Below, piece after piece: positions 16,655 to 48,400 of a stretch of DNA of 64,000 nucleotides. The position numbers were made by a program, and so were the translations under genes. The notes beneath the pieces are model-generated. The model saw nothing but the letters and a program-made list of their open reading frames with translations. It was not told where the DNA came from and made no database searches. The stretch comes from Bolinopsis microptera (Eukaryota; Ctenophora; Tentaculata; Lobata; Bolinopsidae). The stretch is taken from assembly GCF_026151205.1 (NCBI RefSeq), contig NC_087078.1, positions 7,332,675-7,396,674 of the forward strand, given 5' to 3'. Each line of letters begins with the position of its first letter. Position 1 is the stretch's first letter.

Positions 16655-16745
16655 TTTAGTGAAACAAATTTAAAATTTTCTCCTTTATTTTACAATCATA
16701 ATATAATAATATTTATAAGTCTCCGTTTTGAAAGTTTTAAATTTT
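16655..16745. repeat. Dispersed repeat shared with the loop of the 24.4-kb foldback
   Basis: AAACAAATTTAGTGAAACAA through TCTCCGTTTTGAAAGTTTTA recurs inverted at 24361-24470. The segment just before it (16600-16640) matches 24716-24750. This shows shared flanking sequence around the two family A LINE copies. Confidence 0.7.
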
Positions 16746-16776
16746 AATATATTCACATTTCTATTTGTATTTAAAA

Positions 16777-17870
16777 GTAAGTATGTCTCGGTATTAGGTG
16801 AAGAATCCGAGAAACTTCCAGTAGTCTATGGAGTGCCGCAGGGGAGCTGTCTTGGTCCCTTACTTTTTATTATTTATATTAATGACATCCGTAACTCATC
16901 AATTATAGGAAAGTTTATACTATTTGCCGACGACACTAACATATTTATAGAAGACACATGTGTCAAAAGACTATACGAAAAAGGAAATGAAGTTCTATCA
17001 TTTGTGTACAAGTATATGAAACTAAACTTATTACATATTAACATTAAGAAATGTTGTTTTATTCATTTTAAACCCTCACGGGCCAAAGAGGAAGTAGAAA
17101 ATGACGAGAACATACTAACTTTAAATAATGTAGTTATTAAAAGAGTTCAAGAAGCTAAATTTCTAGGCGTTATTATTGACGACCAACTTAACTGGAAATC
17201 ACATACGCAGTCACTTAACTCAAAACTTAAATGCGAAGTAGGAAAGCTGTGCAGAATACGACACATTGTCCCAAAGCAGTATTATAAGGATTTATATCAT
17301 ACTCTATTTGAATCACATTTAGGATTTGGAATATCTGTGTGGGGTGGTATTAGCAATAACCGACTTGAACCTATCTTTAAAACACAGAAAAAGTGTATAA
17401 GAATTCTGTTTGGGGATAGAGAAGCTTACCTAGAGAAGTTTAAAACGTGTGCCCGAACACGACCTGTTGATAAGCAAAGACTGGGGTTGGACTTTTACCA
17501 AAAAGAACACTCCAAGCCCTTGTTTAAAACCCACAGGTTGTTGACGGTCCACAATCTGTACAAGTACACTTGTCTCTTAGAACTATTCAAAATTAATAAG
17601 TTAGAGGAACCATTATCACTGTACTCATCATTTAACAGGTCACCACGACGAGAGGATTATTTCATTACATCACAACCATCCTCACAATTCATCTACCAAT
17701 CATCCTACATGTGGAACAGCTGTCGACAAACATCAAGTAAGATAAGTTTTAATACTCCATCAAACGGGTTTAAGAATATATTGAAAATTGCCTTACGAGA
17801 ATTGCAATTCAAGCATGATACACTTGATTGGTGTGAGCTTAATTTTGCCACAAATGAGCTCAAGTTCTGA
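16777..17870 (+). pseudogene. CR1-like LINE family A, 5'-truncated reverse transcriptase (copy 1)
   Basis: The open frame holds only the back half of a reverse transcriptase. It begins at VSVLGEESEKLP and passes through the GVPQGS block and the catalytic FADDTNIF box, then the thumb and connection region (LGVIIDDQLNW, LYHTLFESHL) to a stop at 17868-17870. The PHD finger, endonuclease and first RT blocks are missing. The protein is nearly identical to the minus-strand copy at 28.9-30.0 kb. Homology to that copy begins at AGTATGTCTC near 16779, so the reported frame start at 16728 is not part of the element. This is a typical product of incomplete target-primed reverse transcription. Confidence 0.85.
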
Positions 17871-19040
17871 TTTATGTGAGTTACTAAAATGACCATATAT
17901 CTTTTCTCATACATATAACCACTGCACTCCAACCAAAAACATTACTTACACCATACTCCACAAATGATATATATATATACACAAACACACTAGTACCGAG
18001 CAATCGCACTGTAAAACATGCTCACGATACACTCAAAATTGGAAATATTCAACGGCTTGTATATGAAACTTACACTTACACTCAGTGTACACCCAGTGTT
18101 AACTAGTATTACACACTGGTAAACTCTACGTAACGCGCGAAAATAATAATTCTATGGCGTTTTCATTGTCACATTTCACGTCGACGGGATTAAACGCGCG
18201 CGCGCGCGCGTAACATCTTATCTTACTGCTATCTCAACGAATAAACACACAACGACTTTGACAATTGACCGACGACTTAACGATTGTGAGTTATGACGGA
18301 CTTAACTGTATGGGTCAACTACTAAAACTGCATTGTATACTATCTTAATCATTATACTGGACATGAGATGACGAAGTATCTTGAGCAGCACTTTATACCT
18401 CCACTTAGAACTTGATTAGTCACGAACAATAGAATCATTATAAATCAATACAATAAAACATCTTGATCAATAAATGCCTAGCAGCACCAGACAGCAGCCG
18501 TGTACCTTTTTCGACTCCACGGAGTCCCTGATGGACTTTTGTTTACTTTTGTTAATAATTTGACCGCAACCTTTCTTTCTCGAAACACAAATCCTACTGT
18601 ACTTCATTACAGTATTAAGATAATATAATATAAAGCAAATCATGTGAATATATGACTACGAAATAGATCTATAGACTTGTCCATAATATTTAATACCGTA
18701 TTGATGGTTTTGAATTTTGTATATTGAATTTTAATGTGAAGCGTTTACTCTTCCCCCTCGGCAATTAATTAGAAAGTTAGATTAATGACAATAATTGCCA
18801 AATGACGTAGTAGATATAGATGTTCAATGTTGTAGAGTGATTTCAAGAGTAGTGGTCCACAGGGGCCCGAAAAAGCCGTACAGGCACTTGGGTCCTTATC
18901 CTTGTCACTAGTCCCAATTGGATTCACTTTACACAAAACATGAACGTTTACAATTTAGACGTACACATTGGCACGATATTTATTAGAAAGCAAACAGTAT
19001 AAAATAATACGTGCGTGCGCGGCTTGAGCCGCGCCGCATA
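17871..19040 (+). mobile_element. LINE family A 3' region (copy 1)
   Basis: Non-coding sequence downstream of the RT stop, matched in inverse by 27420-28240 and 24800-25215. Shared landmarks include the alternating CG tract (18195-18211), the GACTCCACGGAGTC palindrome (18514-18530) and the GC-rich GCGCGGCTTGAGCCGCGCCG near the end. It is treated as 3' UTR of about 1.1 kb. Family B sequence begins at about 19041. Confidence 0.7.
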
Positions 19041-20005
19041 ACAATTTTATTTATTATAACTCCATCCTAATAAACTACTACCCTCCCTCAGTTGATACCA
19101 CCACTAGTAGCAAGCTCCCTTTTCACTCTGACGATGAGTCTGAGATTATTGCTAACTCAGAAATTGCTACTATCAGCATAGGCGACGTCAGGAAGGTGTG
19201 CTTTAAGTGCATCTATGAGACCGGAAACGAAGCCTCAACTGAGTATGTTCATAGTGTAAGTCCAGAATCTAACTCAGTGTATGTGATGACACGATCGTCA
19301 CAAGCCTGGTATCGTCACGGTATTGATGAAACAGGTCCTGCTGAAACTCAGTCTTCTGTGCAGACAGGAAGGTTCTCCATCACACTGAGAACTGTGAGCA
19401 AACAGTTTAGCCGGAGCTGCATCATCATGGGCGACTCTAACACCAAGCCCATCAAGTTCGGTGTCGGTACTGGAACCCTTGGACAGTCCTTCCCAGGTGA
19501 ACGTGTTAAAGCCAACAAGGTCAGTGCAATAGACCCTAAGCTCTGCATTGGTTATAGCAACGTCATCTTAGTTTGTGGGACCAACGATCTACGAGTTGAA
19601 AATGTGCAGTCACCTGGTGATATACACCAGCTGGTAGACATTCTCCACCTGAAAATCCAGCAGATCCAGAAACTGTGCCCTAAGGCGAAGTTGTTTGTCA
19701 CAGCAGTTTTACCGTCTAGACTCCCTAAGATGAATAAAAACATTATGGCATTCAACAGCTTGGTTGATGAAATGTTGTACTCTAGCTTTAACCAGACTGT
19801 ATGGCACCTTGGTGTTGGCCACTTTTTAGACGGTAAAGGGTTGCTTGCTATGAAACTCACGAGAAATGGTGATGAAATCCATCTCGGAGAGCTTGGTATT
19901 GCTAAATTTGTGAGATGTCTGAAACAGTGGGTGTATGTGAGGGAGAGACAGGAGAGAGTAAGACAAAGGAAGGCCACCCGACCAGTGGGAGTTTATCCCA
20001 CTTAG
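19041..20005 (+). CDS. LINE family B ORF1: AlkB-like dioxygenase + SGNH esterase (5'-truncated)
   Basis: The frame is open from about 19032, so the GTG at 19196 is not the true start. Upstream of it the frame encodes NYYPP and the HxD iron ligands (LPFHSDDE). The region from 19196 supplies the second histidine (WYRHGID) and the R-x-S-x-T-x-R arginines (RFSITLR), completing an AlkB-type 2OG-Fe(II) dioxygenase core. An SGNH hydrolase follows, with block I GDSN, block III CGTNDL and block V DEIH. The stop is TAG at 20003-20005. SGNH esterases in ORF1 are known from CR1-clade LINEs. The N-terminal part of the AlkB domain is lost at the element junction. The dioxygenase may protect or repair nucleic acid intermediates; that is inference. 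Confidence 0.8.
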
Positions 20006-20011
20006 TTTATC

Positions 20012-23000
20012 ATGATTATGAAACTTATTAAAGATGTGTGCGACCCCTGTAGTAAATACATTAATATTGGCCAGCCACTCTTAGAATGTGAAAATTGCAG
20101 CAAAGTTGTTCATACTAAGTGCTTCAGATCCGCGAAATTTACAAGCAAAAACGGTCTATGGATGTGCAGTGATTGCTGTAGTACAATAGAAGATAGGTAT
20201 TGCCCATTTCCAAGCAGCCAAAGATATGATGATTCAGATAAATTCTATGATACAAACAACCAGGAAGATGTCACCATAGCTAAATTCTCTTCAATACTTG
20301 AAGACTGTAAGCGTTACACAAAACAAGAACTAGCAAACTCAATCAGCAAACTTTTTCCTGAGAAAAATAAAAATTCTGCTTATCTGCCCGCTCTGTTTTG
20401 CAATATAGATGGGTTTGCTAGTAATTTTGACAGCTTTTTAATAGAACATAAGACCCTCCCGTGTAATTTTGATGTCATTGGATTGGCTGAGACCAACATC
20501 GATCCAAGCCAACAAGGCTTATACCAAATCCCCTCCTATACAACATTTTGTCAAGTACCATTCCCTGATAAGAAAAAAGGAACAGGAGTATCCTTATATG
20601 TCTCTGATCGCCTGAATGCTGTAGTAATCGAAAATCTATCTCACTGTACAAAAGATATTGAGTGCTTATTTGTTGAAATTACTCTTAGCTCGGGTGATAA
20701 ACTGACATATGGGGTTGCTTATCGTCCTCCAAATGGCTGTAGTGAGACCTTTTGTCAAACTCTTGAGGATATATCTAAGCAGTTGGCTGGTAAAAAGTTC
20801 CATATTCTTGGCGATTTTAACTCTAACCTCCTCAATGTACAAACCTCCAGCCAGCTATTTGAGGACACGTTACTTCGTAACAATATGTATCCTACTATAT
20901 CACTTGCTACCCACTTCCGTCCTAACTGTAAAAACTCATGTATTGACAATATCCTCACATCAGAGATAGATCATGTACTTCTCTCCGGTGTATTGAATGA
21001 TAGGATTGGTGACCATGCCTTTATATTCACCTTCACGTCAATTCCTACCGAAAACAGTACTGAAAAACTTAAACATGTTCGCTACTATGATTATTCAAGT
21101 TCCAAACTCACTAATTTTGTTAATGAACTCGAGGTGAAGGTGAATGACTTGACTCCCTCGGTAAACTTCAATGAGTTCTTGGACTGCTTCAATGAAACAC
21201 TTGATAAACACTGTAAGCTTGATGTACCAAAAGTTACCAAAAGGACTCCCAAACTCAACCCGTGGATTACCGATGGAATCATTGTCTCAGTTGAAAGAAA
21301 ACATGAACTCTGTAGAGACTGGTCAAGCACTGTAACAAATAGAAACCCTGAGGGTAATGTACTGCTCTATAAAGTCTTCAGTGACTACCGAAGAATGCTT
21401 AAAAGTATTATCAAGGTCGCCAAACGATCGTACTACTGCAATGAAATCCATAAAAATATAGAAAACAGCAAAAAAAACGTGGCAGATAATCAATGAGCTC
21501 AGGGGCAAGAAAAAGAAGCAAACTAAGCCTCCCTTTATCATAAACAACGAACGAATCATGAATCGTAGAGTCATAGCCAATGGATTCAACTCTTACTTTG
21601 TTTCTATTGCCCCTAAGCTCAATGAAACACTTAGTAGCAGTGAGGCCTCTGGTTTACCAATTCTCCCTATAAAAACATTCTATGATTTCCTTGGAAAGAC
21701 TAATGAAAAATCGATTATGTTAGAAGACTGTACACCTTATGAGATAACGGAAATAATAAAAGGATTTGAAAATGGAAAAGCAAGTGATATTCCTGTTAGT
21801 GTAATCAAAAGATCATCTCACGTAATTACACCGATCCTTAGTCGATACATCAACATCTTAATGTCTAATGGCACGTTCCCCGACGTTCTAAAGACTGGTA
21901 GAATAACTCCTGTATTTAAGAAGGGAAACCCTGAAGAGATAGAAAACTACCGCCCAATCTCTACTCTCTCTATATTTGGTAAAATCTTTGAAAAGATCAT
22001 TTACTCAAGAATATATTCGTTTGCTAGCTCACAGGGTATAATATCTAAAACACAATTTGGCTTCAGGCAGTCACACTCTACTTCACATGCAGTTAATCAC
22101 TCAGTAAACCTTATAACTGAATCTCTAAAACTTAAGCATCATGTCTTAGGCATATTCATAGACCTAAGCAAAGCTTTTGATACAATAGATCATGGTACAT
22201 TACTTGTCAAATTACAGGGCTATGGGATACGTGGGGTGGCAAATGATCTTATAAAAAGTTACTTAACAAATAGATCACAATATACTGAAGTTGTTGGTGA
22301 GAAATCTGACGCCTTGAAAATACAGTTTGGAGTCCCTCAGGGTTCGATTCTTGGACCTCTCTTATTTCTCCTATATATTAATGATATCGCCAACAGCTCC
22401 AATTTGGGATCATTTGTCACCTTCGCTGATGACACCAATATATTTGTGACTGGGAAATCTAAAAAGGAGGCATATATGCGTGGTAATTCTCTTTTAGCTA
22501 GTTTATATTCCTACATGCGAGCAAACAAACTCCATGTCAACTTGTCTAAATGCTGTTTCATTCACTTTAAACCAGCATCGTCCTCCCAGACTGACAATAA
22601 TTCTGAATATACTCTAACCATTGATAACTTTCCAATAAAACAAGTTGCATCTGCTAAGTTTCTGGGAGTCGTCATCGATGAAAAGCTAACCTGGGAAGAA
22701 CATATAAAATCACTTAGGCGTTCTCTCAGCCATGCAACATCAACTCTCTGCCGCCTACGCTGCTCCCTCCCAGATTTCTTACACCGCCAGTTGTATTACA
22801 CTCTATTTGAATCACACCTCTCCTATTGTATCACGGTTTGGGGTGGGGCAGCCAAAACTCGTATAAGTTCTGTATTCAAAGCACAAAAATATTGTCTCAG
22901 GGTACTGTTTGGCGACAGGGAGGCATACCTAGATAAATTTAAGACCTGTGCTCGTGCTCGACCGTTTGGCAACCAAAATCTGAACAAAAAATTTTTCTTG

Positions 23001-23408
23001 AAAGAGCACACGAAACCTTTGTTCAAGGAACACGGAATACTTGCCGTCCAAAACCTGTACACTTACCATTGTTTCCTTGAGCTCTATAAAATCATGAAAT
23101 TCCGTGCTCCGATTTCCCTCCATGAAAATTTCACCTGCTCAAGTAGGAAACCCACCCTTATACTAAGCCAAGCAGACCCCCCTGACAACTTCAATAGCAG
23201 AACGACTCGTATTTGGAACGTAATTGTGCCTAAGCTTGGTATACGTGACTACTGTCTAAGTGTGGCCTGCCTGAAGTCTAGGATGAAGCAATCACTGCTC
23301 GTCAACCAGCATAACCATGCTGATCTTGATTGGACAAACAAAGATTTCGAATGCTCTAATCTAAATTTTGACATTAAGTCTACCCTAGGGTCCACACATC
23401 CAAAATGA
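20012..23408 (+). pseudogene. LINE family B ORF2: PHD finger, AP-type endonuclease, reverse transcriptase (one frameshift)
   Basis: ORF2 begins at ATG 20012, in the same frame as ORF1 and six bases past its TAG. Residues 10-55 form a PHD finger (C10, C13, C26, C29, H34, C37, C52, C55). Residues of about 125-345 form an EEP endonuclease (LAETN, VAYRPP, LGDFNSN, SCIDNIL, GDHAF). The frame breaks at an A8 run (21470-21477), where one extra A shifts it to a TGA. The second frame, from 21558, carries the full reverse transcriptase (YRPIS, FIDLSKAFDTIDH, GVPQGS, FADDTNIF) and the C-terminal domain to 23408. Otherwise it is intact, so the element may be young. RT relatedness to family A is clear but distant. 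Confidence 0.88.
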
Positions 23409-24084
23409 TTATCTTGAAATTGAAAATTAGCTGGGTGTGCATTTTCCTTCCTGTCTTACTAACGTGTGTGAGCGCAGTGTAGTGAGAAAGTGTTTTTAAC
23501 AGATTTATTATTAGACTTAGGATTATGATTTTTAATATATTACATTGATAAAAGATTTATTTTTGATAGGTACTTAATAAAGTTGATGAATTTCCCTCCC
23601 TATTAAAATTTTAAACCCATTTAGTGAAAATTGATAAACGAAGATCTAGATATTGATACATATTATAACCAACATTGCTTATATTCTGCCTTGTAAACAA
23701 AGAGCAAATCTTCTTAATGCCTTCTTCCTGTCCTAAAACTAAAACTTCATCCTATTAAAGTAAAGGCCAGTTGTTACCACAAGCTATTATACCGTCCCTC
23801 TCAAAAACATACCTCAGCCTCCATCAAAAACAATTTTAGTTTTCAGTCCTTCTAGTTTCCAAAAATCTACCGAGCTAGTGTTCTGGTGTGCACAAAAGCC
23901 CCTAAGCCCGTGCATTCCTTGCCCCGCTAGCTGCCAGTCCTTGACAAACTTCCAATAGCAAAGATCAACTAGTCATTTACAAATTGAGCACTATACAATT
24001 TTAATTGTTTTAAATATTTGACTTTGTAAAATGAGCTAAAACATTGATTTATTAGTTTCATTGATTTATTAGTTTCATTGTTTA
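23409..24084. other. 3' region of LINE B and spacer
   Basis: Non-coding. The LINE B 3' UTR begins here, but I could not place its end because no poly-A or microsatellite tail is evident before about 23600. No other feature was recognised. Confidence 0.4.
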
Positions 24085-24090
24085 GGGGCT

Positions 24091-24718
24091 GGAGTACGCG
24101 TGTTTACAGATTAATGAATTGTTGCATTGTAAATATTTAAAGTTGACGATATATTATGATTTAATAGTAAATTTTTCAAAGCTGGCTTTGGACTTAGGTA
24201 AAATTATAATTTATTTATTTAAAAGAAAAAACCACGGATAGTTTTTAATTTACATAGTCGTATAACTATAATCAAGTTAATCCTGTTTTCAAGAATGCGC
24301 GGCTTTGGCGGCCAGTTATTGACTTGTACATAAAATTGAATTTTAAATAGAAATGTGAATGTATTAAAATTTAAAACTTTCAAAACGGAGGCTTATAAAT
24401 ATTATTATATTATGATTGTAAAATAAAGGATAAACTTTTAAATTTGTTTCACTAAAATTTGTTTCACTAAAATTCAATTTAATGTATAAGTCAATAACTG
24501 GCCGCCAAAGCCGCGCATTCTTGAAAACAGGATTAAATTGTTTATGATTATACGACAAAGAGAAATAAATTTAAACTATCCGTGGTTTTTTAAAATAAAT
24601 TATAATCTTACCTAAATCCAAAGCCAGCTTTGTAAAATTTACTATTAGATCATAATATATCGTCAATTCTCAATATTTACAATGCAACATTTCATTAATC
24701 TACATACAAGCGTACTCT
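24091..24718. mobile_element. Foldback element with ~240-bp arms
   Basis: The left arm (24091-24345: GAGTACGCGTGTTTACAGAT, GCGCGGCTTTGGCGGCCAGT) is the inverse of the right arm (about 24478-24718). The loop at 24361-24470 matches 16655-16745. The outer end GGGGCTGGAGTACGC at 24085-24099 also matches the 3' terminus of the adjacent LINE A copy in inverse (24797-24811). Confidence 0.8.
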
Positions 24719-24762
24719 TACCTGAGGACCCCAGGCTATTATGTTCATTAACATATAGATTT

Positions 24763-24795
24763 GGCGGAATGACAGGCTGAGCGCGGCCCAGTAAG
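24763..24795. repeat. 33-bp direct repeat, left copy, flanking LINE A copy 2
   Basis: The sequence starts GGCGGAATGACAGGCTGAGC and is identical to 34058-34090. The two copies bracket the whole family A LINE (24796-34057) in the manner of a long target-site duplication. Confidence 0.75.
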
Positions 24796-25214
24796 CGTAC
24801 TCCAGCCCCTGCACGCATCCGTTCTTATGCGGCGCGGCTCAAGCCGCGCACGCACGTATTATTTTATACTATACTTTTTGCTTTCTAATAAATATCGTGT
24901 CAATGTGTACGTCTAAATGTTCATGTTTTGTGTAAACCGAATCCAATTGAGATTAGTGACAAGGATAAGGACCCAAGTGCCTGTACGGCTTTTTCGGACC
25001 CCTGTGGACCACTACTCTTGAAATCGCTCTACAACTATTGAACATTTATAACTGTTATATAATATATAACGTCATTTGACAATTATTATCATTAATCTAC
25101 AATCTAACTGTCTTGCTGAGGAGAAGGATGAAGGAGTAAACGCTTCACAAACTAAAATATAATACTTACAACATACAAAATTTAAAACCATCAACACGGT
25201 TATAGTTAATATCA

Positions 25215-27420
25215 AGGGCCAATTTGGTATACCGCTATTTCGTTGTAATATCTATTATCACACTTTCGAGCCAAATTTGGCAGGAAAGCAGAATTGATAT
25301 TACATGCCCCGATAGGGAGCACTGGCTCTCACCCGGGGGCATGAAATATCAATCAGTTGCTCAGAGAGAGTCCGATATTCCCATAGGAACAAGGAGCCCA
25401 CTCACAACAACTGTTCTACTACTGTGAGGTACTCATTTAAATAAAGATTTAAATCAATAACCTGAAGTAGTCTATGACCGTAAATGCAATGATCAGATAA
25501 ACTTTCCAGATTTAGGAAAAATATATATTTATACCTTGTTTTAAAAACATTTCCTTGCGTTTGAGATGTGTTAAGCAAAATACAATTTTTTGTTGTAAAA
25601 CTTTTTCAAGCTGTTGCTTTTTTACTGCACTTCATAGTTCAAAACCTAATTAGGCTTCGGATGATGAAACAAAGTAAAAACTTCCTGGTTTGTACGAGTT
25701 TCAAGCGACTTAAGGTTACTGAAAACGAGATCAAAGTTTACAAGCAGACTTGAAAGTTGCACAACGTTTTGGTACTTGTCAGCGATACAATCAATCAGGC
25801 TTATTAATTTCCTTAATCGCTTACTTGAAATTAAAAAGGAAGTGTCAGAACAAACTACAGTCACCCTCACAAAAAGTAGTAGACACAGAAACGATGTTTG
25901 ATCTATTCGAAGGAAGAAAACACACAAAACAAAGCCAGATTTCAGCCATTTCAGACCTGAATTTTAACCCCCTCTGATCCCTTCTTTGAGCCATATTCCA
26001 TATAGAAATTGTGCAGAAATTATACTTGGCTTTTCCATTTTCCAAACCGGTTTCGCCTAGATTAGCTTGCGAAATTCGTGGCTGATCTATAAACAGAGAC
26101 TTATAGATTCTGTACAATAAAGAGCGAAAATTCTATCCCAGGACTAGTTTTAACTGAATTTTAGTTAGTGCAAATAAGTGCAATAAAAACATCCTATAAA
26201 ATATATTATCTATATAAATATATCAAGGGACGAATGACGTAACTTAATCAGCTAATCTGGTTATAAATTAGTCTGGGCACTGGGGCAAACAGGTCCGATG
26301 ATTAATGTGCTGCCATTCTTTAGACAATTCAATATTGGTAACAGTACGGGTGAACTACCTGGCCATGACCAGTCACCAGGGTGGTTATAGGCTGGTGGAG
26401 TACTGCGTTCTAAAATGTTGAAGAGATACATTTGAATATTACAAATGTTCTGATAATTTCCAGTTCAGATAATTTCTAGCTCGAAGCAGATAATGGCAAA
26501 TAATGGCAAGTAAAGATGGATACTGACTAAGAACTAAGCAGAATACTCGATAAAATTCTAAGTCAACGATAACAAGTTGCATTAAATCATTCTGAAATAA
26601 CAGACAATCAAGAATCAAGACGGACGATAATATTGTTGATGTAAATTAGGGAGTGTAGTGTATAATGTGGACTGATAAATAGACACTAATTATGACCCCA
26701 CAGCTCTATTCAAATACAAGAACTAGGAAATTCTTTCACCCCATCGCAGATACAGATTATACGATAAGGACTGTGATGTATAATCAACACTTAAACGGAT
26801 GTTCTATACATTATACATCTACAGTTTTAATGACTCTAAAAATATCTAATAGAAATAAAGTATTATAATCACCTCACATCGATTGATTTGCAGGATGTAA
26901 TTACGTATCAAACGCGCTCGCGGCGGAATATTCTAGACTCATAAGTACAAGACCCATAGGCGGAAAACACATTAATATCGCATGCACTAGGTAGCAGTAC
27001 AAAGCAAATTCAGCGCGGCACACAGCATTCACTGTGTCATAAATGTGAAACGCGAGATTCTAATTTTGACGTATTGTATCTTTAATATCTGAAATACTAA
27101 CTTATCGAGAGCTATATATAGCTTGGACATTATAAACATAAATAAGTTAGACATGTCTAGTTTTGCTTTGGTGAGATTTATAACTAACGTTTGATCAAAT
27201 TCTGCTTTCCCGGCCAAATTTGGCTCCAAAGAAAGTGTGATAAAACATTAATCACATGCCTTCTCATGCGATATCAACATTTTCAAAACTCGGCAAGCCT
27301 CGTGATTGAAAATGTCGATATAACCCTCGGCAAGCCTCGGGAAATATCGAAACTTTCGCTAACTCGGCAAGCCTCGTGGGCGAAAGTTTTGATATCGCAT
27401 GAGAAGGCATGTGATAAATG
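25215..27420. mobile_element. Composite insertion with inverted ends inside LINE A 3' region
   Basis: LINE A homology stops near 25215 and resumes near 27420. The inverted pair 25253-25298 / 27194-27243 (CCAAATTTGGC core) brackets about 1.9 kb. A hairpin with CATGCCCC/GGGGCATG arms lies at 25294-25358, and a cloverleaf lies at 27251-27415. No transposase frame is visible, so this is probably a non-autonomous DNA element. Confidence 0.6.
27251..27415. repeat. Cloverleaf: three stem-loops with identical loops inside a perfect 27-bp stem
   Basis: The outer stem 27251-27277 pairs perfectly with 27389-27415. The inner stems are 27277-27286/27306-27315 (10 bp), 27316-27321/27344-27349 (6 bp, with a further CCC/GGG) and 27350-27359/27380-27389 (10 bp). 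Each loop carries the same 14 bases CTCGGCAAGCCTCG (27289-27302, 27326-27339, 27363-27376). Confidence 0.9.
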
Positions 27421-28248
27421 TATAGTATATCTTTACATTTTAATACAATAATGAAATACAATAGGATACATGTTTCGAGAAAGAAAGGTTGGTCCGATTA
27501 TTAACAAAAGTCCATCAGGGACTCCACGGAGTCGAAAAAGGTACACGGCTGCTGTCTGGTGCTGCTAGGCATTTATTGATCAAGATGTTTTATTGTATTG
27601 GTTTTTGATGATTCTATTGTTCGTGACTAATCAAGTTCTAAATGGGGGTATAAAGTGCTGCTTAAGATACTTCGTCATCTCATGTCCAGTATAATGAATA
27701 AGATTGTAAACAATACAGTTTCAGTAGTTGACCCATACAGTTAAGTCCGTCATAACTCACAATTGTTTAATCATCTGTCAATTGTCAAAGTCGTTGTGTG
27801 TTTAGTCGCTGAGTTAGCAGTAAGATAAGTTGTTACGCGCGCGCGCGTTTAATCCCGTCGACGTGAGATGTGACAATGAAAACGGTACAGAATTATTGTT
27901 TTCGCGCGTTACGTAGAATTTACTAGTGTGTAATACTGGTTAACACTGGGTGTACACTGAGTGTAAGTCGCTAAGTTTCATATACGAGCCGTTGAATATT
28001 TCCAATTTTGAGTGTATCGTGAGCATGTTTTACAGTGCAATTGTTCGGTACTAGTGTGTTTGTGTGTATATATATATATATATCATCTGTGGAGTATGGT
28101 GTGTGGACTGTGGTAAATAATGTGTTTAGTTGGAGTGCAGTGGTTGCATGTATGAGGAAATATAAGTGGTTATTTTAGTAAATCACATTAATCAAAACTT
28201 GAGCTCATTTGTGGCAAAATTAAGCAATTTTCAATGTATTCTTAAACC

Positions 28249-28838
28249 CAGAGGCGGCTCGTGGGAGCTGGCTGGCAGTTTTGTTGGGGTCCAATCGATG
28301 GACTGGGGGGGGGGGGGAGGGGGGCTTGGGAGCCGGCTCAAGCTGATCCCTCCAAACTACCGATTACATTACACACAGGGCCTTGTAAATGTAATGTGTA
28401 ACACTTTACAGGCGACAGCAAACAAACACAAAAACTTATAACATGGGTGAAACAGGACACCAGTCCACACGTGTACGATCTCAGCCGCGCAGAATCATAT
28501 AGCAGTCAAATTGCAAAGGGTCCTGGACCCCCAAATCGAGGCAAATCATAATAGATTACCTATAGTGGGATGCGCACGATGTGCTTTGTAACGTTTACAA
28601 TTAACTATGTATTAAAACTGCGCGGCTGAGTGGTCCAGGACTCCCTACAACACAAAATTTCACGAAGATCACGCGTGCGCTTACATTAAAACGTATGATA
28701 GTAAATGAAGACCTTTATATTGCGATTTGTTATTTCCTAACACTATTACTAATTACTATTTCTATTTTAAGCACCAGCCACCAGATAATAATTTTAAGGC
28801 GTCCACAGACGCCTGGACGCCCTCAATAGCCGCCTCTG
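28249..28838. mobile_element. hAT-type non-autonomous element, 590 bp
   Basis: Terminal inverted repeats CAGAGGCGGCT...AGCCGCCTCTG are flanked by an exact 8-bp target duplication CTTAAACC (28241-28248 and 28839-28846). An 8-bp duplication with CAG-starting TIRs is the hAT signature. It interrupts the LINE A coding end; matching sequence continues on both sides. A G-rich run (about 28304-28322) lies inside. Confidence 0.88.
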
Positions 28839-28849
28839 CTTAAACCCGT

Positions 28850-29986
28850 TTGTCGGAGTATTAAAACTTATCTTACTTAATGTTTGTCGACAGCTGTTCC
28901 ACATGTAGGACAGGGACAAAAGGATTTCGCGGCATGTACGAAATCGCGAAATTTCCCATTCTCCGCGACAAATTTTATGTATAGTTTAATGTATAGCCTG
29001 TTAAATTTCGCGGTACCGCGATTTTTGGCCAAAATAATCGCGAAATCCTTTTGTCCCTGATGTAGGATGATTGGTAGATGAATTGTGAGGATGGTTGTGA
29101 TGTGATAAAATAATTCTCTCGTCGTGGTGACCTGTTGAATGATGAGTACAGTGATAATGGTTCCTCTAACTTATTAATTTTGAATAGTTCTAAGAGACAA
29201 GTGTACTTATACAGGTTGTGAACAGTTAACAATTTCTGATTCTTAAACAAGGGCTTAGAGTGTTCTTTTTTGTAAAAGTCCACACCTAGTTTTTGCTCAC
29301 CAAATGGTCGTGTCCGGGCACAAGTTCTAAATTTTTCTAAGTAAGCTTCTTTATCCCCAAATAGAATTCTTATACACTTTTTCTGTGTTTTAAAGAGAGG
29401 TTCGAGTCGGTTGTTGCTAATACCACCCCATACAGATATTCCAAATCCCAAATGTGATTCGAATAAAGTATGATATAAATCCTTATAATACTGTTTAGGG
29501 ACAATGTGTCGTATTCTGCATAACTTACCTACTTCACATTTAAGTCTTGAGTTAAATGACCGTGTGTGAGTTTTCCAATTAAGTTGATCATCGATAATGA
29601 CACCTAGAAATTTAGCTTCTTGGACTTTTTTAATGACAACATTGTTCAAAGTTAATATGTTCTCGTCATTTTCTACTTCTTCTTTGGCACGTGACGGTCT
29701 AAAGTGGATAAAACAGCATTTCTTAATGTTAATATGTAATAAGTTTAGTTTCATATACTTTTAAACAGATGCTAAAACTTCATTTCCCTTTTCGTACAGT
29801 CTTCTGACACATGTTTCTTCAATAAATATGTTAGTGTCATCGGCAAATAGTATAAACGTTCCTATAATTGATGAGTTTCGGATGTCATTTATATAGATGA
29901 TAAACAGCAAGGGACCTAAACAGGACCCTTGGGGCACTCCGTAGACAACGGGCAGTTTCTCAGAGTCTTCACCTAATACTGAGACA
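28850..29986 (-). pseudogene. LINE family A reverse transcriptase, back half (copy 2)
   Basis: This continues ORF2 after the nested insertion: VSVLGEDSEKLP, GVPQGS and FADDTNIF. An in-frame TAA near 29758-29760 then replaces a tyrosine codon that copy 1 retains. The thumb and C-terminal region follow, until a 149-bp hAT-type MITE at 28911-29059 interrupts the frame. It is nearly identical to 16777-17870, and the nonsense codon plus the insertions make it inactive. Confidence 0.85.
28911..29059. mobile_element. hAT-type MITE, 149 bp
   Basis: The TIR CAGGGACAAAAGGATTTCGC and its exact inverse at the other end are flanked by an 8-bp target duplication ATGTAGGA (28903-28910 and 29060-29067). It is inserted into the RT C-terminal coding region of LINE A. 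Confidence 0.92.
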
Positions 29987-30345
29987 AGGATACAAGGATA
30001 CAAGGATACAAGGATACAAAAGTGATAATTATTTTATTGAGTTCACAATAGTTATAATTCTGAAATAATTTAAGTTACACACTTCTAATCATTTACAAAT
30101 GTGTAGGGATAAAATAGAAATGTTATAATATAATGCTATTTTCTTTAAGTAAATCAAATTTGTATGGTTCATGAGTTTATTTTGAGTTCCTAGAGCATTA
30201 TGCACTTGCCAGTATTTGAGTGGAAATCTGGGCTCTTATAATAGGCTGTATATTGTTCGTTCACAGAGAGAATTGAATGGATTGCTCTTGCTGTGGCAGT
30301 AAATTTGGTAGGATCTAGATTTTTGTTGGAGAGCATACTGAGACA
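29987..30345 (-). mobile_element. Nested 5'-truncated CR1-type insertion with (AGGATACA)4 tail
   Basis: A 359-bp insertion flanked by an 11-bp duplication ATACTGAGACA (29976-29986 and 30335-30345). On the minus strand it ends in four copies of an 8-base repeat (TGTATCCT), the microsatellite-type 3' tail typical of CR1/L2 elements. The beginning could encode the last residues of a LINE protein. It splits the LINE A reverse transcriptase just before the GVPQGS block. Confidence 0.88.
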
Positions 30346-32716
30346 TACTGGTATCTATTCGACAGGTAACTTGCTATAAGGTTGTTTGCATTTCCACGGA
30401 TCCCATAATTTTCTAACTTATGCAGTAACTTTTCATGTGAGATTGTATCAAAAGCTTTGCTAAGATCAATAAATATTCCAAGTACGTGTTGTTTTTTCTT
30501 GAGACGTGATTCTATGTGGTTAACTGAGTAATTTAAAGCATAACTAGTCGAATGATTTTTACGGAATCCGTACTGGTTTTCATACAAGGAATTCTGTGAA
30601 TGAAAGAAGCTATATAATCTGTTGAATATAATTTTTTCAAATATTTTACCAAATACTGCAAGTGTCGACACAGGTCTATAATTTTCAAGGAGTTCCTGGT
30701 TATCTTTCTTGTAAATTGGACTAATCCTTCCAATCTTAAGGTCATCTGGGAATATGCCATCTTTCATACATTCATTGTACAGTACAGTAAGTAGAGAAGT
30801 GACTATTTTTGAGGACTGTTTTACAACATGAATTGGTATATCACTTGCCTTACCGTTCTTAAGTTCAGATATGATTTTGCTAACCTCGTCTGTTGTGCAG
30901 TCATGCATGTAAATGCTGGAGGTGTTTGAGAGCGGTAAATAGTCATAGAAACTAGGTAGATTGTTTATGTTCATTTGACCAAGTTCATTGTAAGCAGTAT
31001 TTAAGTCAGAGGCCAATGATACGAAATACTTATTGAATTCGTTTGCTATGATCCTCCTGTTTGTTATCTTAACGTTGTCTATGGTGAACAGCGGCTTTAT
31101 TTCACGCCGCCGTTTTCCTCTTATACTATTTATTAGTTCCCAGGTCTTTTTACTATTCCCGCTATTTTCTGCAAATTTACCAGAGAAGTAATCTGTTTTC
31201 ACAGTTTGACGTGTTTTCTTTAGGACTTTTCTGTATTCTTTGTAGATAAGGTAGCGACTACGTTTTAGTGAGCATTCAGGGCACTGGCAAATCCCGCCCT
31301 TGTTATCAGTTTCCCCGAGTTTACATTTTCTATTTCTTATCTCAACCCAATTTTCGTAGAGTTTATGCTGATTATTAATTGAGCAAATGAGACCGGGAGT
31401 TATCCAAGGGTTAACCTTAGTAACAGTTCTCTTAGAGGTTTTCGGGGTTTCTAGTTTAAACGATTTTTCGATGCAGTTTTTGTAAGTGTCATGGAATTCA
31501 GTAAAGTTATGGATTATTTTAGTTTTAAGCTCATCTTCAAGATCCACTAGGAAGCCGTTAACATTTGATTGACAGAAATCGTAATACTGTTTAATAGAAG
31601 TTTTTCCAGAGTTGACTTCAACATTCCAGTTAAATGTGTTAAAAATAGGCGAGTGGTGAGTTATTCGTTCTTTTAGGGTGCCTGAAGTAATAAAATTCTC
31701 AATGTCGTTGGTAATTATGTTGTCTATGCAAGATGCTTTACAGCCTGGTTTTTCGTGAGTAGCAATAGATATTAACGGACAAAATCCTTTACTGAACAAT
31801 ATTTCTTCATATTTTTGTACATTTTTGTTATCTTTATCATGAAGATCGATATTAAAGTCTCCAGCTAGATAACTGAACTTCGGCATGTGATCAAGAAGGT
31901 TAGAAAGTTCAACTAGAGCTTGGGAAATACAGCCACTTGGTGGACGATACAAAACACCTACATTAACAGGTTGATCTTCGTTACTTAATGATAAGACAAG
32001 TATTTCTAGATGTTCTGTGACTTGTGATATATTTTCAATTACTGTAGCATTTAATCTATCGTCAACATAAAGGGCTACTCCAGTGCCCTTTTGTTTGTTA
32101 GGTGCTGTGTCCTGATAGTAACTATTATAACCGTCGAGCTGAAATAGATTGCTTAATTCTTTTCCAGTGTTGGTTTCAGCTAGGGCTATTACGGAGAATT
32201 TTGTTTTGTACCTATTGGTTTCAATGGCAAGGTTGTCAAAATTTGATTTATTTCCATCAATATTTTGAAAGAGAATAGATGATTGTTTCTTTACTTGGTT
32301 GCAGAGAATATTGGTAAGGTCAGATGCAGTGTATGAGTTACAATTATTTAAAGTATTCGAGATTTTGGTTGTGTATTCGTCTAGGTTGTTGTCGTTGTCG
32401 TCATCGTCAGTGAGTAGTTTAAATGGGTTATATTTAACCTTGTCTAAATGGATACAACGAGTACAGTAAAACTCATTAGATTGGCTATTTGTATTGGATT
32501 TGCGATAGCATTTATGGTGCATTATGCAGTCACAGTGGAAACATTCAACTATTGTTTGGCCGATGACTATGTTCTTAGAACAGACAAGACATACCTCCTT
32601 AATGAGGGGAGTCATGTGACCCTGACTAGCAGCAGCAGGAACAACAGGACCAGTTTCTCTTCCAGCAGTCACATCCCTGAAGGATCTACTGTCTACCCTT
32701 GTGGACCTCCTCTTCC
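30346..32716 (-). pseudogene. LINE family A ORF2, front half: PHD finger, endonuclease, first RT blocks (copy 2)
   Basis: One continuous frame. The PHD finger begins MTPLIKEVC, with C-x2-C, C-x2-C, H-x2-C and C-x2-C pairs. The EEP endonuclease shows LAETN, LYRPP, AGDFNIDL and SCIDNI. A Cys/His-bearing linker follows (CQCPECSLK), then RT blocks with YRPVS and FIDLSKAFDTISH up to the nested insertion at YQYVSV. The frame is also open upstream of the PHD finger, joining the C-terminal part of the ORF1 region without a stop. In family B a single TAG separates the two. Confidence 0.88.
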
Positions 32717-34057
32717 TTTTGTCGATACCACCGTTAATCCTGAGAAGAACAGTGTTACGAATAAATTGACCTAACTTTGCTAGTCCCCTCCAGTTGAGGT
32801 GAAGGAAGTCTGGTTTTTGGTGTTTGTTGAGGTCGCGAGAGAGAGAGAGCGGTCAAGTAGACCATCTCTATCACAGAACTCATCAAATCCATCCACATAA
32901 CTGACACCAAAATTGGACGGGAGCAGCCTACGTCGAATCAAACTGTTAAAATATATAAGTTTTCTATTTAAGTCAGCACGTTTAGAGGAAATTGCTGGAC
33001 AAACAAAAACATGTATACACGGATTGACAGATTGTATCTGTGCAATCTTTGAAGCTAATGCATTATAAATAAGTTCAATGTCATGTTGGTTCTTGACCTC
33101 TTCGTTTTTGAGGTCGTTGACCCCGCACAATATTACACAGTTTCTATACCCCAACGTGACATAAGGATCTATACTATCAATGACCGGAGCGAAGATGCGT
33201 TTGCCAGGTAACCACTTGCCGAATGACTTAGCAGGATCAGTACCAAATTTCAAGCCTCCAGTGTTTGAATCCCCGATGATGCATGTGGCATTTCTGTTCA
33301 ACGAATTCACGGATCTAAGTGTGATGCTGTAACGTAGCCCTTCTATATCACCTGCATCAATACGATGGTTGAACAGTGCTTGGCTATGACGTGTCATAAC
33401 ATAAAAGGAACGTGGGTCACATTGCTGCTTGTGCTTATCAGTGCCTGTGTGAGAGTCCGAGAAAGAAACCTGACATGCAGAACCAAGCGAGACAGTGAAT
33501 ATTTTAGACTCTGGATGGATGGTCGGCTCATCATCAGAGTGTCTAGGTAGCTTGCTGTCTGTTCCTTCAAACCGATTTACTAAGCAGCTGTTGATCTGAG
33601 GTAGATCACCCTGGCAGAACTCATTATTGATTTTGTCAATGAGTTCCTTGAGAACCGATGGTATTGCCTGTGGCTTTTCAGATGACTTGGAACCTGGGTA
33701 ATCATACCTTTCCCCATATGTTAGGCAGGAGCGGTCGTTCTCAACTTTGAAGTGACCACTGTCCTTAACAAAAAGTTCACCTAAATCATTTGCTGTTTGC
33801 TGATCATTGTAGTCATTTTTGAACATTTCCACAGGTTTCTGCTCATGATTGGGTAGCTGCACAGGGACTGTAGGGACTGGAGAACGAAGGTGCTGAGTAG
33901 GAGGTCCTGGATGCAATGAGGTGGGAGGAATGCAGGGGCCAGGATTATGCAATGGCTGTAATGAGTCTAAGGATTGTTTCAATTCACTTATGCCTGCAGC
34001 TGCAGTGTGCTCATTGGCACAGAGTACAGTGAGCTGTTCAGAGATTGTTAGAGATTA
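32717..34057 (-). pseudogene. LINE family A ORF1: AlkB-like dioxygenase + SGNH esterase (copy 2)
   Basis: A Pro-rich N-terminal region precedes an AlkB-type domain. Numbering from the TTG at 33982, the iron ligands are H148-x-D150 and H206, followed by R217 and R223 in RYSITLR, with the strand NSCLVNRF before them. An SGNH esterase follows with GDSN (237-240) and CGVND. A two-base change in a CT repeat (about 32837-32851) shifts the frame before the last SGNH block. That block, with D-x-x-H (PDFLHL), is found in the other frame, which then runs without a stop into ORF2. The N-terminus is cut at 34057. Confidence 0.82.
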
Positions 34058-35574: not shown

Positions 35575-36213
35575 ATGAAAGACAATAGTATCGCATTCTT
35601 ACATTCTATCAACATGCCTACCTTCTCCAAATTCATCTCTGGTCGGACAGGATCTCAACAGCTACTTGACTCTGACGGATTCATCTACTGTCGGAAGAAG
35701 AACAAGGATTCAGCCCTCACATCTTCCTGGCGGTGTTGCAAGCACAAACTCCCTACGAAGTGTTCGTGTCCAGTGGCTGATGTCGAGGAAGTCTTCTACG
35801 AAATAACTTACTATATACAGACAAACTATCCTAAGCTAATGTCTATAGTGAATTATTTTGAGAAGACTTACCTTGGGTCAGTCATTGTGGACAGTGAGGT
35901 GAGGCTTCTCCCTGCATATCCCTTAGGATTCTGGAACCATTTCGCCAGAATCATTCGGGATCCGGAGTTCCCTCGAACCTCGAACATGGTTGAGGGCTTT
36001 CACAGAGGATTTAAGTATGTGAGAGCTATCAAAGAGCAGCAAGTCATCACTGACTTTCACATCGACAGGTTGAGTGTTGGCAAGACACCCGCTAAGAGGC
36101 GAAGGAATTGCCATACCCAACTCCACGATATCTGTTCATTTTACTCCACATACTCTAGCAAGATCGAGTATTTGTTTTCTGTAGCCTCAGTTTTTGGGCA
36201 CGATATGTATTAA
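35575..36213 (+). pseudogene. MULE transposase remnant: FLYWCH-type finger joined to the C-terminal domain
   Basis: 212 residues. Positions of about 14-70 (DGFIYCRKKNKD, SSWRCCKHKLPTKCSCPVA) fit a FLYWCH-type zinc finger of Mutator-like transposases. From about residue 72, YYIQTNYPKL, YFEKTYLGS and RTSNMVEGFHRGFK match the region after the catalytic core. The central DDE-containing domain of several hundred residues is missing, so the protein cannot transpose by itself. The start ATG at 35575 is the first in frame; M at residue 14 would also fit. The frame is free of stops, which is notable for an internally deleted copy. Confidence 0.72.
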
Positions 36214-36226
36214 ATTATAATTAATG

Positions 36227-36425
36227 TATTCAGTATTCAGTATTCAGTATTCAGTATTCAGTATTCAGTATTCAGTATTCAGTATTCAGTATTCAGTATT
36301 CAGTATTCAGTATTCAGTATTCAGTATTCAGTATTCAGTATTCAGTATTCAGTATTCAGTATTCAGTATTCAGTATTCAGTATTCAGTATTCAGTATTCA
36401 GTATTCAGTATTCAGTATTCAGTAA
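36227..36425. repeat. 7-bp minisatellite (ATTCAGT)n
   Basis: About 28 perfect tandem copies lie between the transposase remnant and the right TIR of the MULE. Confidence 0.97.
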
Positions 36426-36756
36426 ATTTGATTAGGGGTAGAGTTCACATGTTCTGTAAATCATAGCTGGTGGATCACATCACTAATTATACGTCACATC
36501 ACTAATTATACGTCATATGATCTGACCCCTAATAATGGAGGGCCCCCCTTTGTCGTGCAGCGAACTAATTTATTTAAAATCTTTAATTAATAAATTGGAA
36601 GATTTTTTAATATAAACTTTTTCCTGAAAGCTTACAGTTTTGACTGAGTTATTTATAATATAAATAGATATTTTACAGACTTTTTGTCGAAAATTTCTAT
36701 TGACATTGAGGTTCTGTTGTCAAATCACAGCAGATTAATCCATTCCACTATAGAAA

Positions 36757-45400: not shown

Positions 45401-48400
45401 AGGAACATACAATTGCGAGGGAAAAAGAAAGTCAGTTTACGATGTAACGTTATTGTACCAAATTTCGCAATTTATAATTTAGCAATTTAATTTTGTAAAA
45501 CAGGGGGGGGGGGGGTAAAAGTCAGTACACATCACCCAATCAACATTGAATCGCTTATGCTCGTGTTTGTGAAGATGCTAGAAACTTTTAACATATTATC
45601 ACAGTAGGTCATTAAATGTGTAATATGATCTGAAAAGATGACGTAAAACGGAATCAAGTTATACCAGGAAGAATTATAGCTGCCGGACAATTTCACCCAA
45701 TGTCAATGAGCACTAAGTGACAGAGAAATAAGCCCCAATTTATGTGTACTGACTTTAATTAGCCTCCCCTGTATATGAAATAATTTTCTTTATAATCTGT
45801 TTTCATATTTGTTATCTTATTTTTCATCTCATTTGTTATCTAACAATGTAAGACGGTTTTAAAACATATTAACCCTCAAAGAACGCCAAAATGCCCCAAA
45901 ATACCCTCAAAGAACGCCAAAATCCCCAAATACCCTCAAAGAACGCCAAAATACTTGCCCGAACAGCGCAGAGTCTCTCAACAAGAATGTTGTAGAATGG
46001 ATCACTGGACAGGACAATCCCTCGGTTGAAGTTCCTTAGTGCTTGGTACAGTTCAGTATCTCCCGATGTTAGCGTCTGGGGAATATAATCACTTATTAAC
46101 ATATTATAATTATACGGTCATTAATTAAAACACTACAACCTGCTATCTTCGATAATATGATGAGATAAAAACCTGGCAGAGATCTTGGAATAATTATGTA
46201 CTACCCGTAGTAAAAATTCAAATATGAAATCACCATAATGAACTACCGGTTGCGGTAGCATATTTTCAAATATAAAGTTTACTAAATCAAAATTTCACAG
46301 TTATGACGGAATATTTTTCCAGTAACCAATTAGTCAGTTAACTATGGACTATGGATGCCATATTGTCACTTTTAAATCCATGATTTGTGAATTCTAATTG
46401 GATACTACAACATTGCACACACATTTCAGCATAACGATAAAAGATAGTATCTAATGACATTTTCCTGTCATTAAGTCTAGTGTTAGGGTGAGACAACGTG
46501 ACCTTTTCTTGATGATCTGAGATAAAGTTACCTTTTCTTGATGATCTGAGATAAAGTTACCTTTTCTTGATGATCTGAGATAAAGTTACCCTTTCTTGAT
46601 GATCTGAGATAAAGTTACCCTTTCTTGATGATCTGAGATAAAGTTACCTTTTCTTGATGATCTAAGTTACCTGCGATATGAACAGTTTATCTGCGTTTCT
46701 AGAGCCTCTCCCGTAAGTCTCATTACATTTCTCCTCCGTCAACATGTTAAAGTCTACCTCGCTTGTATCGCTGAAAATTTCAGGGATTTTGATATTACCC
46801 ACAACTCACAAGGACTGGAAGAGAGAAAAGGAGAGGGAGAGGGAGAGGGAGAGGGAGAGGGAGAGGGAGAGGGAGAGGGAGAGGGAGAGGGAGAGGGAGA
46901 GGGAGAGGGAGAGGGAGAGGGAGAGGGAGAGGGAGAGGGAGAGGGAGAGGGAGAGGGAGAGGGAGAGGGAGAGGGAGAGGGAGAGGGAGAGGGAGAGGGA
47001 GAGGGAGAGGGAGAGGGAGAGGGAGAGGGAGAGGGAGAGGGAGAGGGAGAGGGAGAGGGAGAGGGAGAGGGAGAGGGAGAGGGAGAGGGAGAGGGAGAGG
47101 GAGAGGGAGAGGGAGAGGGAGAGGGAGAGGGAGAGGGAGAGGGAGAGGGAGAATTTACTCGTAATCTGTTGTTCATCACAATATTTCAATATTTATTGAC
47201 TATTACCCTGAACATCAACTCTGCAGAATACATTAGAAATACAAATAATAATGATAATTAATAATTAATAATTAACCTGTAAATAAGGAGGCCGTTTTGG
47301 AGGTCTGCTTGTTTGTCACAAATCAGACGTCCTCTACTCCACACTGATATGAATACTGAAACATTTCTGTATTTAATATTTATAACGGAGAGTTGAAACT
47401 AATGTTTGACTTGATATAATAATGATATAATATTCCTTGCATCAGATTCGATACAAAACTATAATATAATATTAAGGATTGCGTAACTAACAGTTACGCA
47501 ACGATAATATCATAGTTACTAACTATGATATTATCATTGTTGAACTTTATTCGAGTTTCATTATTCAGTTTTAATTCTTTCAACACTACTATATAACAAA
47601 TCATTTGAGTAGCCATTGCATGGCTACTGTTAACGACAAGGAGTTGGAGGATCTGCTCGGGAAATGTTCTGCTTGGATACCAAAAGCGATGGAACAAGTC
47701 GGGTGCACTGCTCCAGCTGTCGTGACGTCAGCATTGTGTAAACGTGCGATGAAGGACACTTTGCATTATTGTTTTCTGAATCGTTCCACTTTGTGCGGTT
47801 TCAGGCGAAAAAAAAATGTTTTAATTTAAAAAATATGAAACAGCTGAAGGCTGAGCTGAGCTCCATCAAGAGCCAGCTAATCGAGAATCAGACGTGGGTA
47901 ATCAGCTTCCAGGAGCAGATTATCGACAACAACTTGGACAAGCAGCTCGACGCAGTAAAGACTGTGGTCAAGTCTTCGGCGGAGAGCAACTTGAAAGAAC
48001 AGTTCAAGTCATACAGTGAAGCTGCTGCGGAGAGCGGTATGGTCTGCCAGACTGATAGTTTGGCAGATCCGGCTGCACTGAAGAAATTGGTCAAGTCCGT
48101 CGTCCAAGAGGAGAATCAGAGCAGGAACGTTGTATTATTAGGACTGCCAGAACAGAAGGACGAGAATGTTGAAGAGCGGGTACATGAGGTATTCCAGGAG
48201 ATAGGACTAAAAGTAAAACCAGCTTTGCAGGCTACTAGAATAAGAAAGATTCGTAAAGAGAATCCGAAGCGCCCAGTCAAGGTTTCGTTATCAAGTCACA
48301 GCTCTGTCGGCTGTCCATCAAGTGCTATGTCAAGTCAAGAAGCTGCGCCACTCAGCGACTTTCAACAAAGTGTATGTGAGACCAGATCGCTCCGAAGTAG

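Follow-up and report, generated by a model that had tools for sequence, protein, structure and literature searches.

The window analysed here, a stretch of 64,000 nucleotides from Bolinopsis microptera (contig NC_087078.1, positions 7,332,675 to 7,396,674), contains two copies of long interspersed nuclear elements (LINEs) from different families: A on the plus strand (19058-23408) and B on the minus strand (from 34045 to a reverse transcriptase, RT, piece ending at 28839, with family B 3' sequence shared down to ~27426). In both, the first open reading frame (ORF1) encodes an AlkB-type 2-oxoglutarate (2OG)-Fe(II) dioxygenase upstream of, and fused to, an SGNH esterase, and is followed by an ORF2 with a finger, an endonuclease and the RT. 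An earlier note on this DNA implied a cnidarian host; the host is a ctenophore. Both copies are 5'-truncated, A starting inside the AlkB domain (19058) and B near the end of the coiled coil (34045), and both contain frame breaks (A in ORF2; B in ORF1 and the RT). The features, in window coordinates, are:

19058..19390, plus strand: family A ORF1, AlkB domain, truncated at 5' and preserved from the N-S-I-L-I-N-Y strand onward (tblastn of the relative P0111 starts at 19058; Pfam 1.4e-06; ligand columns)
19124, 19130, 19316, 19370 and 19388, plus strand: family A AlkB ligand codon starts (iron ligands H 19124, D 19130 and H 19316; 2OG arginines 19370 and 19388)
19391..20002, plus strand: family A ORF1, SGNH esterase domain; its Ser, Asn, Asp and His share one frame
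20012..21496, plus strand: family A, first part of ORF2, encoding an EEP endonuclease behind a PHD-like finger (Exo_endo_phos passes its Pfam cut-off at 1.7e-05, PHD misses its own at 2.1e-04)
21558..23408, plus strand: family A ORF2 part 2, RT, after a frame break (Pfam RVT_1 6.4e-36; the B frame matches either side of the break by tblastn)
32840..34045, minus strand: family B ORF1, 5'-truncated, with the coiled-coil end, AlkB (~33745-33311) and most of SGNH (92% identity to P0111 residues 256-656; Pfam 1.7e-14; model pLDDT 90)
32613..32846, minus strand: family B ORF1 C-terminal piece with the esterase D-x-x-H, in a different frame (87% identity to P0111 residues 654-731)
30318..32615 (open frame from 32672), minus strand: family B ORF2, with a finger that looks PHD-like by eye, the endonuclease and the first RT part (Pfam RVT_1 1.2e-19; Exo_endo_phos 1.3e-04, under cut-off)
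28839..30030, minus strand: family B remaining RT, broken frame (tblastn)
16740..18632, plus strand: 5'-truncated close relative of family B, RT C-terminus and 3' untranslated region (UTR) (shares 935 nt at 89%, and more blocks, with minus-strand sequence to 27426; RT piece 91%)

AlkB-type demethylases take damaging methyl groups off DNA and RNA. The AlkB core that had been read from the letters (H-S-D-D-E, a second H within LFNH or WYRH, and R-[YF]-S-I-T-L-R) is present in full in both window families. The Pfam family 2OG-FeII_Oxy_2 matches family B at E=1.7e-14, above the gathering score, and family A at 1.4e-06, just under it (29.1 bits against 31.2), because the family A domain is 5'-truncated. 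The H-x-D...H iron ligands and the R...R 2OG ligands are all retained in 134 of the 135 scorable sequences, including both window copies; the count covers those of 142 aligned sequences with letters at all five places, and the exception is the fusion P0029. This conservation bears on the idea that the AlkB fold is a nucleic-acid-binding module replacing a missing RRM, with catalysis secondary. Esterase-type ORF1 proteins are indeed described without structural RNA-binding domains (PMC3905857, available part), and an orchid AlkB without catalytic activity retains RNA binding (PMC9289625, available part). However, a pure binder needs none of the five ligands, and they are kept among relatives that are often only 30-50% identical, so that such a role appears quite improbable.

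In structure comparison, the predicted model shows the AlkB fold and aligns with human ALKBH2 and ALKBH3 with matching ligand positions, at 20-22% identity over the aligned fold. Among reference proteins, the family profile matches ALKBH2 (8.3e-20), ALKBH3 (5.7e-18), ALKBH8 (2.7e-14) and E. coli AlkB (3.2e-06), an order that reflects profile ranking alone; ALKBH5 and FTO give no profile match at E<=0.001. Profiles together with the confident model tentatively place the domain nearest ALKBH2/ALKBH3. The same ranking touches on the substrate. A DNA substrate, with AlkB either repairing alkylation damage to the integrating cDNA or the target DNA or taking N6-methyladenine off element DNA, would fit ALKBH2 as the best profile match and the presence of a DNA N6-methyladenine demethylase among the matches of another family profile, but the ORF1 proteins of LINEs are known chiefly for packaging RNA, and we consider this alternative improbable. 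Unlikely, in our view, is an epitranscriptomic counter-defence, in which AlkB would erase host-placed N6-methyladenosine (m6A) or 1-methyladenosine (m1A) silencing or decay marks on the LINE RNA, as proposed for the AlkB of orchid Gypsy elements. That protein demethylates m6A in vitro (PMC9289625, available part), and ALKBH5 and FTO score high too in the fold comparison, yet the top profile ranks go to ALKBH2, ALKBH3 and ALKBH8, with neither ALKBH5 nor FTO listed at E<=0.001.

The esterase carries GDSN and G-x-N-D blocks in both window families, as the earlier note had it, and its D-x-x-H lies in frame in A and in a different frame, after a frameshift, in B. Pfam gives no match at 1e-3 in family A and one under the cut-off (2.8e-04) in family B, and the family profile matches the ZfL2-1 esterase structure (PDB 4c1b) at 7.4e-05. 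Profile and fold tests support the domain, which has the fold of SGNH hydrolases and their catalytic Ser, Gly, Asn and Asp-x-x-His; 4c1b is not among the 50 rows of the fold listing, which is informative neither way. The serine block varies in some members: GDSH replaces GDSN in P0135, the ORF1 frames of the copies L029, L030 and L031 likewise do not have GDSN, and L014 is without the block.

Downstream of the AlkB-SGNH ORF1, RVT_1 is matched in ORF2 of both window copies, and Exo_endo_phos in both as well, though in B its score stays below the cut-off that it passes in A. The expected succession of PHD, endonuclease and RT stands for the two enzymes in both families; the PHD is weak and begins a separate ORF2 rather than forming part of the AlkB-SGNH ORF1. 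It reaches Pfam PHD at 2.1e-04 in A, has no Pfam PHD match in B, and is matched in neither copy by a hidden Markov model (HMM) of ORF1 PHDs. Many full-length relatives carry a further PHD at the ORF1 N-terminus, the part that both window copies do not have. In window A, the ORF2 frame has its first ATG 6 nt after the ORF1 stop, and in L009, L016 and L025 this ATG falls within the last ORF1 codons, in a different frame. The RTs of the two families differ clearly, as had been claimed, at 46-57% identity by piece between A and B-type copies (36% over the first ORF2 part; tblastn). The copy at 16740-18632 and family B show a dN/dS of 0.07 (232 RT codons).

CR1/L2-group LINEs typically carry short tandem repeats at the 3' end instead of poly(A). 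The elements described here end in two units such as AAATTTGTTTCACTA in 11 of 14 inspected copies and in one unit in the other three, with no poly(A). With an EEP endonuclease and RT in ORF2 downstream of ORF1 in both window copies, they are APE-type, CR1/L2-like LINEs whose ORF1 protein (ORF1p) is organized as [PHD]-coiled coil-AlkB-SGNH, the coiled coil being read from the sequences and by analogy. Target-site duplications give a weak picture, with ends taken from pairwise alignments: in 11 of 14 copies the longest exact repeat near the ends measures 6-10 nt and is misplaced, and three copies have none.

Relatives are numerous: 108 were matched with the window protein as query and at least 144 with a profile (best 7992 candidates scored). 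Among 61 chosen members (~580-860 aa), the AlkB Pfam family is found at E<=0.01 in 60, Lipase_GDSL_2 in 38 and PHD in 15. A PHD-type finger is present in 37 of the 49 proteins of at least 640 aa, according to an HMM whose building sequences came from the set on which it was then run, and PHD structures are weak matches (0.0028-0.0077) of another family profile. The other 12 long AlkB-SGNH proteins show no recognisable PHD; P0044, P0045, P0051, P0058, P0067, P0073, P0074 and P0083 are PHD-less, with N-termini that look different by reading. Relatives with a named organism come from Bolinopsis microptera (P0135, whose N-terminus is carried by L029 of the window genome) and Mnemiopsis leidyi (P0014, P0015 and P0041). 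No relatives were found by tblastn in viral or prokaryotic contigs with the few short patterns used, which would miss distant ones, and no AlkB-less close relative was found, no search having been aimed at one.

The window genome (264.65 Mb, 232 contigs) contains at least 104 places with AlkB-SGNH relatives by one query, the number of first-look candidates that were scored out of 939. The matched stretches are stop-free in 94 of the 104 (hand count, the window's own copy included). Twenty copies from three families, picked for long open frames and thus no guide to a genome-wide rate, all have an open ORF1 frame of 678-751 aa, and 18 of them an open ORF2 frame of 869-1141 aa, with FADD, close behind it. 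Uninterrupted aligned elements span ~7.2 kb. Against one reference copy per family, identity over the aligned stretches is 96.7-99.9%, except for 90% matches of L013 to an apparent neighbouring copy. The AlkB-SGNH LINE group is young, with many near-identical open copies.

Selection on ORF1 can be followed between families 1 and 2, for which dN/dS is 0.135 and 0.172 in AlkB (two pairs), 0.10 in SGNH, 0.08 in ORF2 and 0.21-0.23 in the N-terminal part, values that are approximate as dS in AlkB is ~1. Uncorrected pooled pN/pS for the same two families is 0.26, 0.14 and 0.26 for AlkB, SGNH and the N-terminal part. Within three families, pN/pS rests on few changes and on pooled pairs that are not independent (AlkB 0.205, 0.186 and 0.135; SGNH 0.485, 0.096 and 0.144; N-terminal part 0.32, 0.57 and 0.65). 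Comparisons of window A with B, and of family 3 with 1 or 2, yield no dN/dS, synonymous sites being saturated. The AlkB domain is under purifying selection. The window copies themselves are broken and 5'-truncated, which might suggest that AlkB was captured by chance, belongs to a host gene next to a LINE or is an artefact of the reading frames; against this stand the number of genomic places, open ORF1-ORF2 pairs, a dN/dS far below 1 and relatives in other genomes, leaving such explanations a negligible probability. Chance or a frame artefact is ruled out by the Pfam, profile and fold matches, the copy number and the open frames. The interpretation offered in the earlier note is supported in part.

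Families 1 and 2 are mosaic. They are 96-98% identical over the first 600 aligned bases, fall to 73-79% (shoulders 87-89%) over ~1.0 kb that spans the coiled coil, AlkB and most of SGNH, before returning to 96-99% at the ORF1 end and ORF2 start; a milder drop (86-97%) follows in later ORF2, and the 3' UTR is at 78-94%. The comparison of L009 with L016 shows this divergent cassette (L009 ~1800-3000) between flanks of ~97%, a pattern that is recombination between LINE families, with exchange of the coiled-coil/AlkB/SGNH cassette. A comparison of 66 proteins shows shuffling in other pairs too: P0111 and P0132 are 92% identical over the first 190 aa versus 55% over AlkB-SGNH, P0119 and P0123 93% over the N-terminal part versus 52%, and P0110 and P0111, conversely, 94% over AlkB-SGNH versus 39% at the N-terminus. 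N-terminal PHD modules and AlkB-SGNH blocks thus appear, from these identities, to be shuffled among families. Within the block, AlkB and SGNH are largely inherited together. Their tree distances correlate over 123 sequences (r 0.77; none of 999 permutations as high), and at support >=0.95 the AlkB tree has 35 splits and the SGNH tree 46, with 24 in common and 2 conflicting AlkB splits (at support 0.8: 77, 81, 42 and 20).

Elsewhere in the window, the heptamer GTATTCA forms a tandem array (36226-36430), a long GA-type simple repeat is readable as an Arg-Glu open frame (46744-47199), and a 212-aa open frame (35575-36213) looks, by eye, like a FLYWCH/MULE-type transposon protein. An Rfam search of the window gave 0 matches.

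The most likely role, which we hold with about even confidence, is that AlkB removes RT-blocking or damaging methyl groups from the LINE's own RNA or cDNA. ORF1p would multimerise on the LINE RNA through its coiled coil and coat it, and the ALKBH2/3-like domain would oxidatively strip methyl groups, enzymatic or due to damage, from the Watson-Crick face (m1A and 3-methylcytidine, m3C, type) of the RNA template or of the nascent single-stranded cDNA. Their removal would aid target-primed reverse transcription because such methyl groups stop RTs; high-fidelity RTs are stopped at m3C, and ALKBH2/3 demethylate m1A and m3C in RNA (PMC11506809, available part). The esterase may tie the ribonucleoprotein (RNP) to membranes or lipids, as for ZfL2-1, whose esterase is proposed to bind them (PMC3905857, available part), and the PHD may read chromatin, as suggested for the PHD of LINEs (PMC4120745, available part). 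Tentatively, a LINE lineage may have taken up an ALKBH2/3-type repair enzyme into its RNP, editing its own template during target-primed reverse transcription, with the AlkB-esterase block an exchangeable cassette traded by recombination, perhaps in a methylation arms race.

If true, a LINE would encode its own nucleic-acid demethylase, a jumping gene that may clean its genetic material before copying it, and the limits that base methylation or alkylation sets on reverse transcription of animal mobile elements could be tested directly. Near-identical open copies within one genome make the system accessible to experiment. Besides plant RNA viruses and one plant long terminal repeat (LTR) lineage, the AlkB fold now has LINEs as a new setting, and these gain an ORF1 type with two enzymes and, in many members, a PHD finger.

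Human ALKBH2 and ALKBH3, stand-alone host repair enzymes, share with the LINE AlkB the fold and, in the alignment, the positions of the iron and 2OG ligands. Within the scope of the literature searched, AlkB-SGNH, often with PHD, is a new LINE ORF1 type. Among the matches listed, titles and abstract starts name no AlkB-bearing LINE (Repbase and most subscription journals were outside the search), and AlkB in a retrotransposon appears for the orchid Gypsy elements only. The word AlkB is absent from the texts of PMC4120745, PMC3905857 and PMC5408684, as is oxygenase from the first. The domain sets of 448 Jockey-superfamily elements in the available part of PMC4120745 hold no AlkB and no PHD+AlkB+SGNH ORF1, and this combination matches none of the sets listed there for ORF1 types I-IV (Table 1), type V being unclassified.

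The nearest known relatives each have part of the architecture (the available parts of the papers are cited). The ZfL2-1-type esterase ORF1 (LINE ORF1 type IV) likewise has a coiled coil followed by an SGNH esterase, but, unlike the elements here, is described without AlkB (PMC3905857). The esterase itself is not new, because such enzymes are reported across many animal phyla, with CR1, RTEX and Penelope among the elements that carry them (PMC3905857), whereas PMC4120745 places esterase ORF1s in only two vertebrate groups. In CR1/L2 elements, a PHD occurs at the ORF1 N-terminus of several subgroups, or at the likely ORF2 start in L2 subgroup 5; the PHDs in Table 1 stand with RRM, CCHC or transposase-22, or alone, and never with an esterase or AlkB (PMC4120745). 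Plant Flexiviridae are likewise RNA-based selfish elements with an AlkB, thought to protect RNA from methylation; they are positive-strand RNA viruses with AlkB in replicase polyproteins (fold matches) and no esterase noted (PMC544882). Orchid Ty3/Gypsy elements also encode an AlkB with in vitro demethylase activity, but these are plant LTR elements in which AlkB is an additional ORF, described as close to m6A demethylases (paALKBH5-like; PMC9289625), whereas the elements described here are LINEs in which AlkB is an ORF1 domain, joined to an esterase and apparently nearest to ALKBH2/3.

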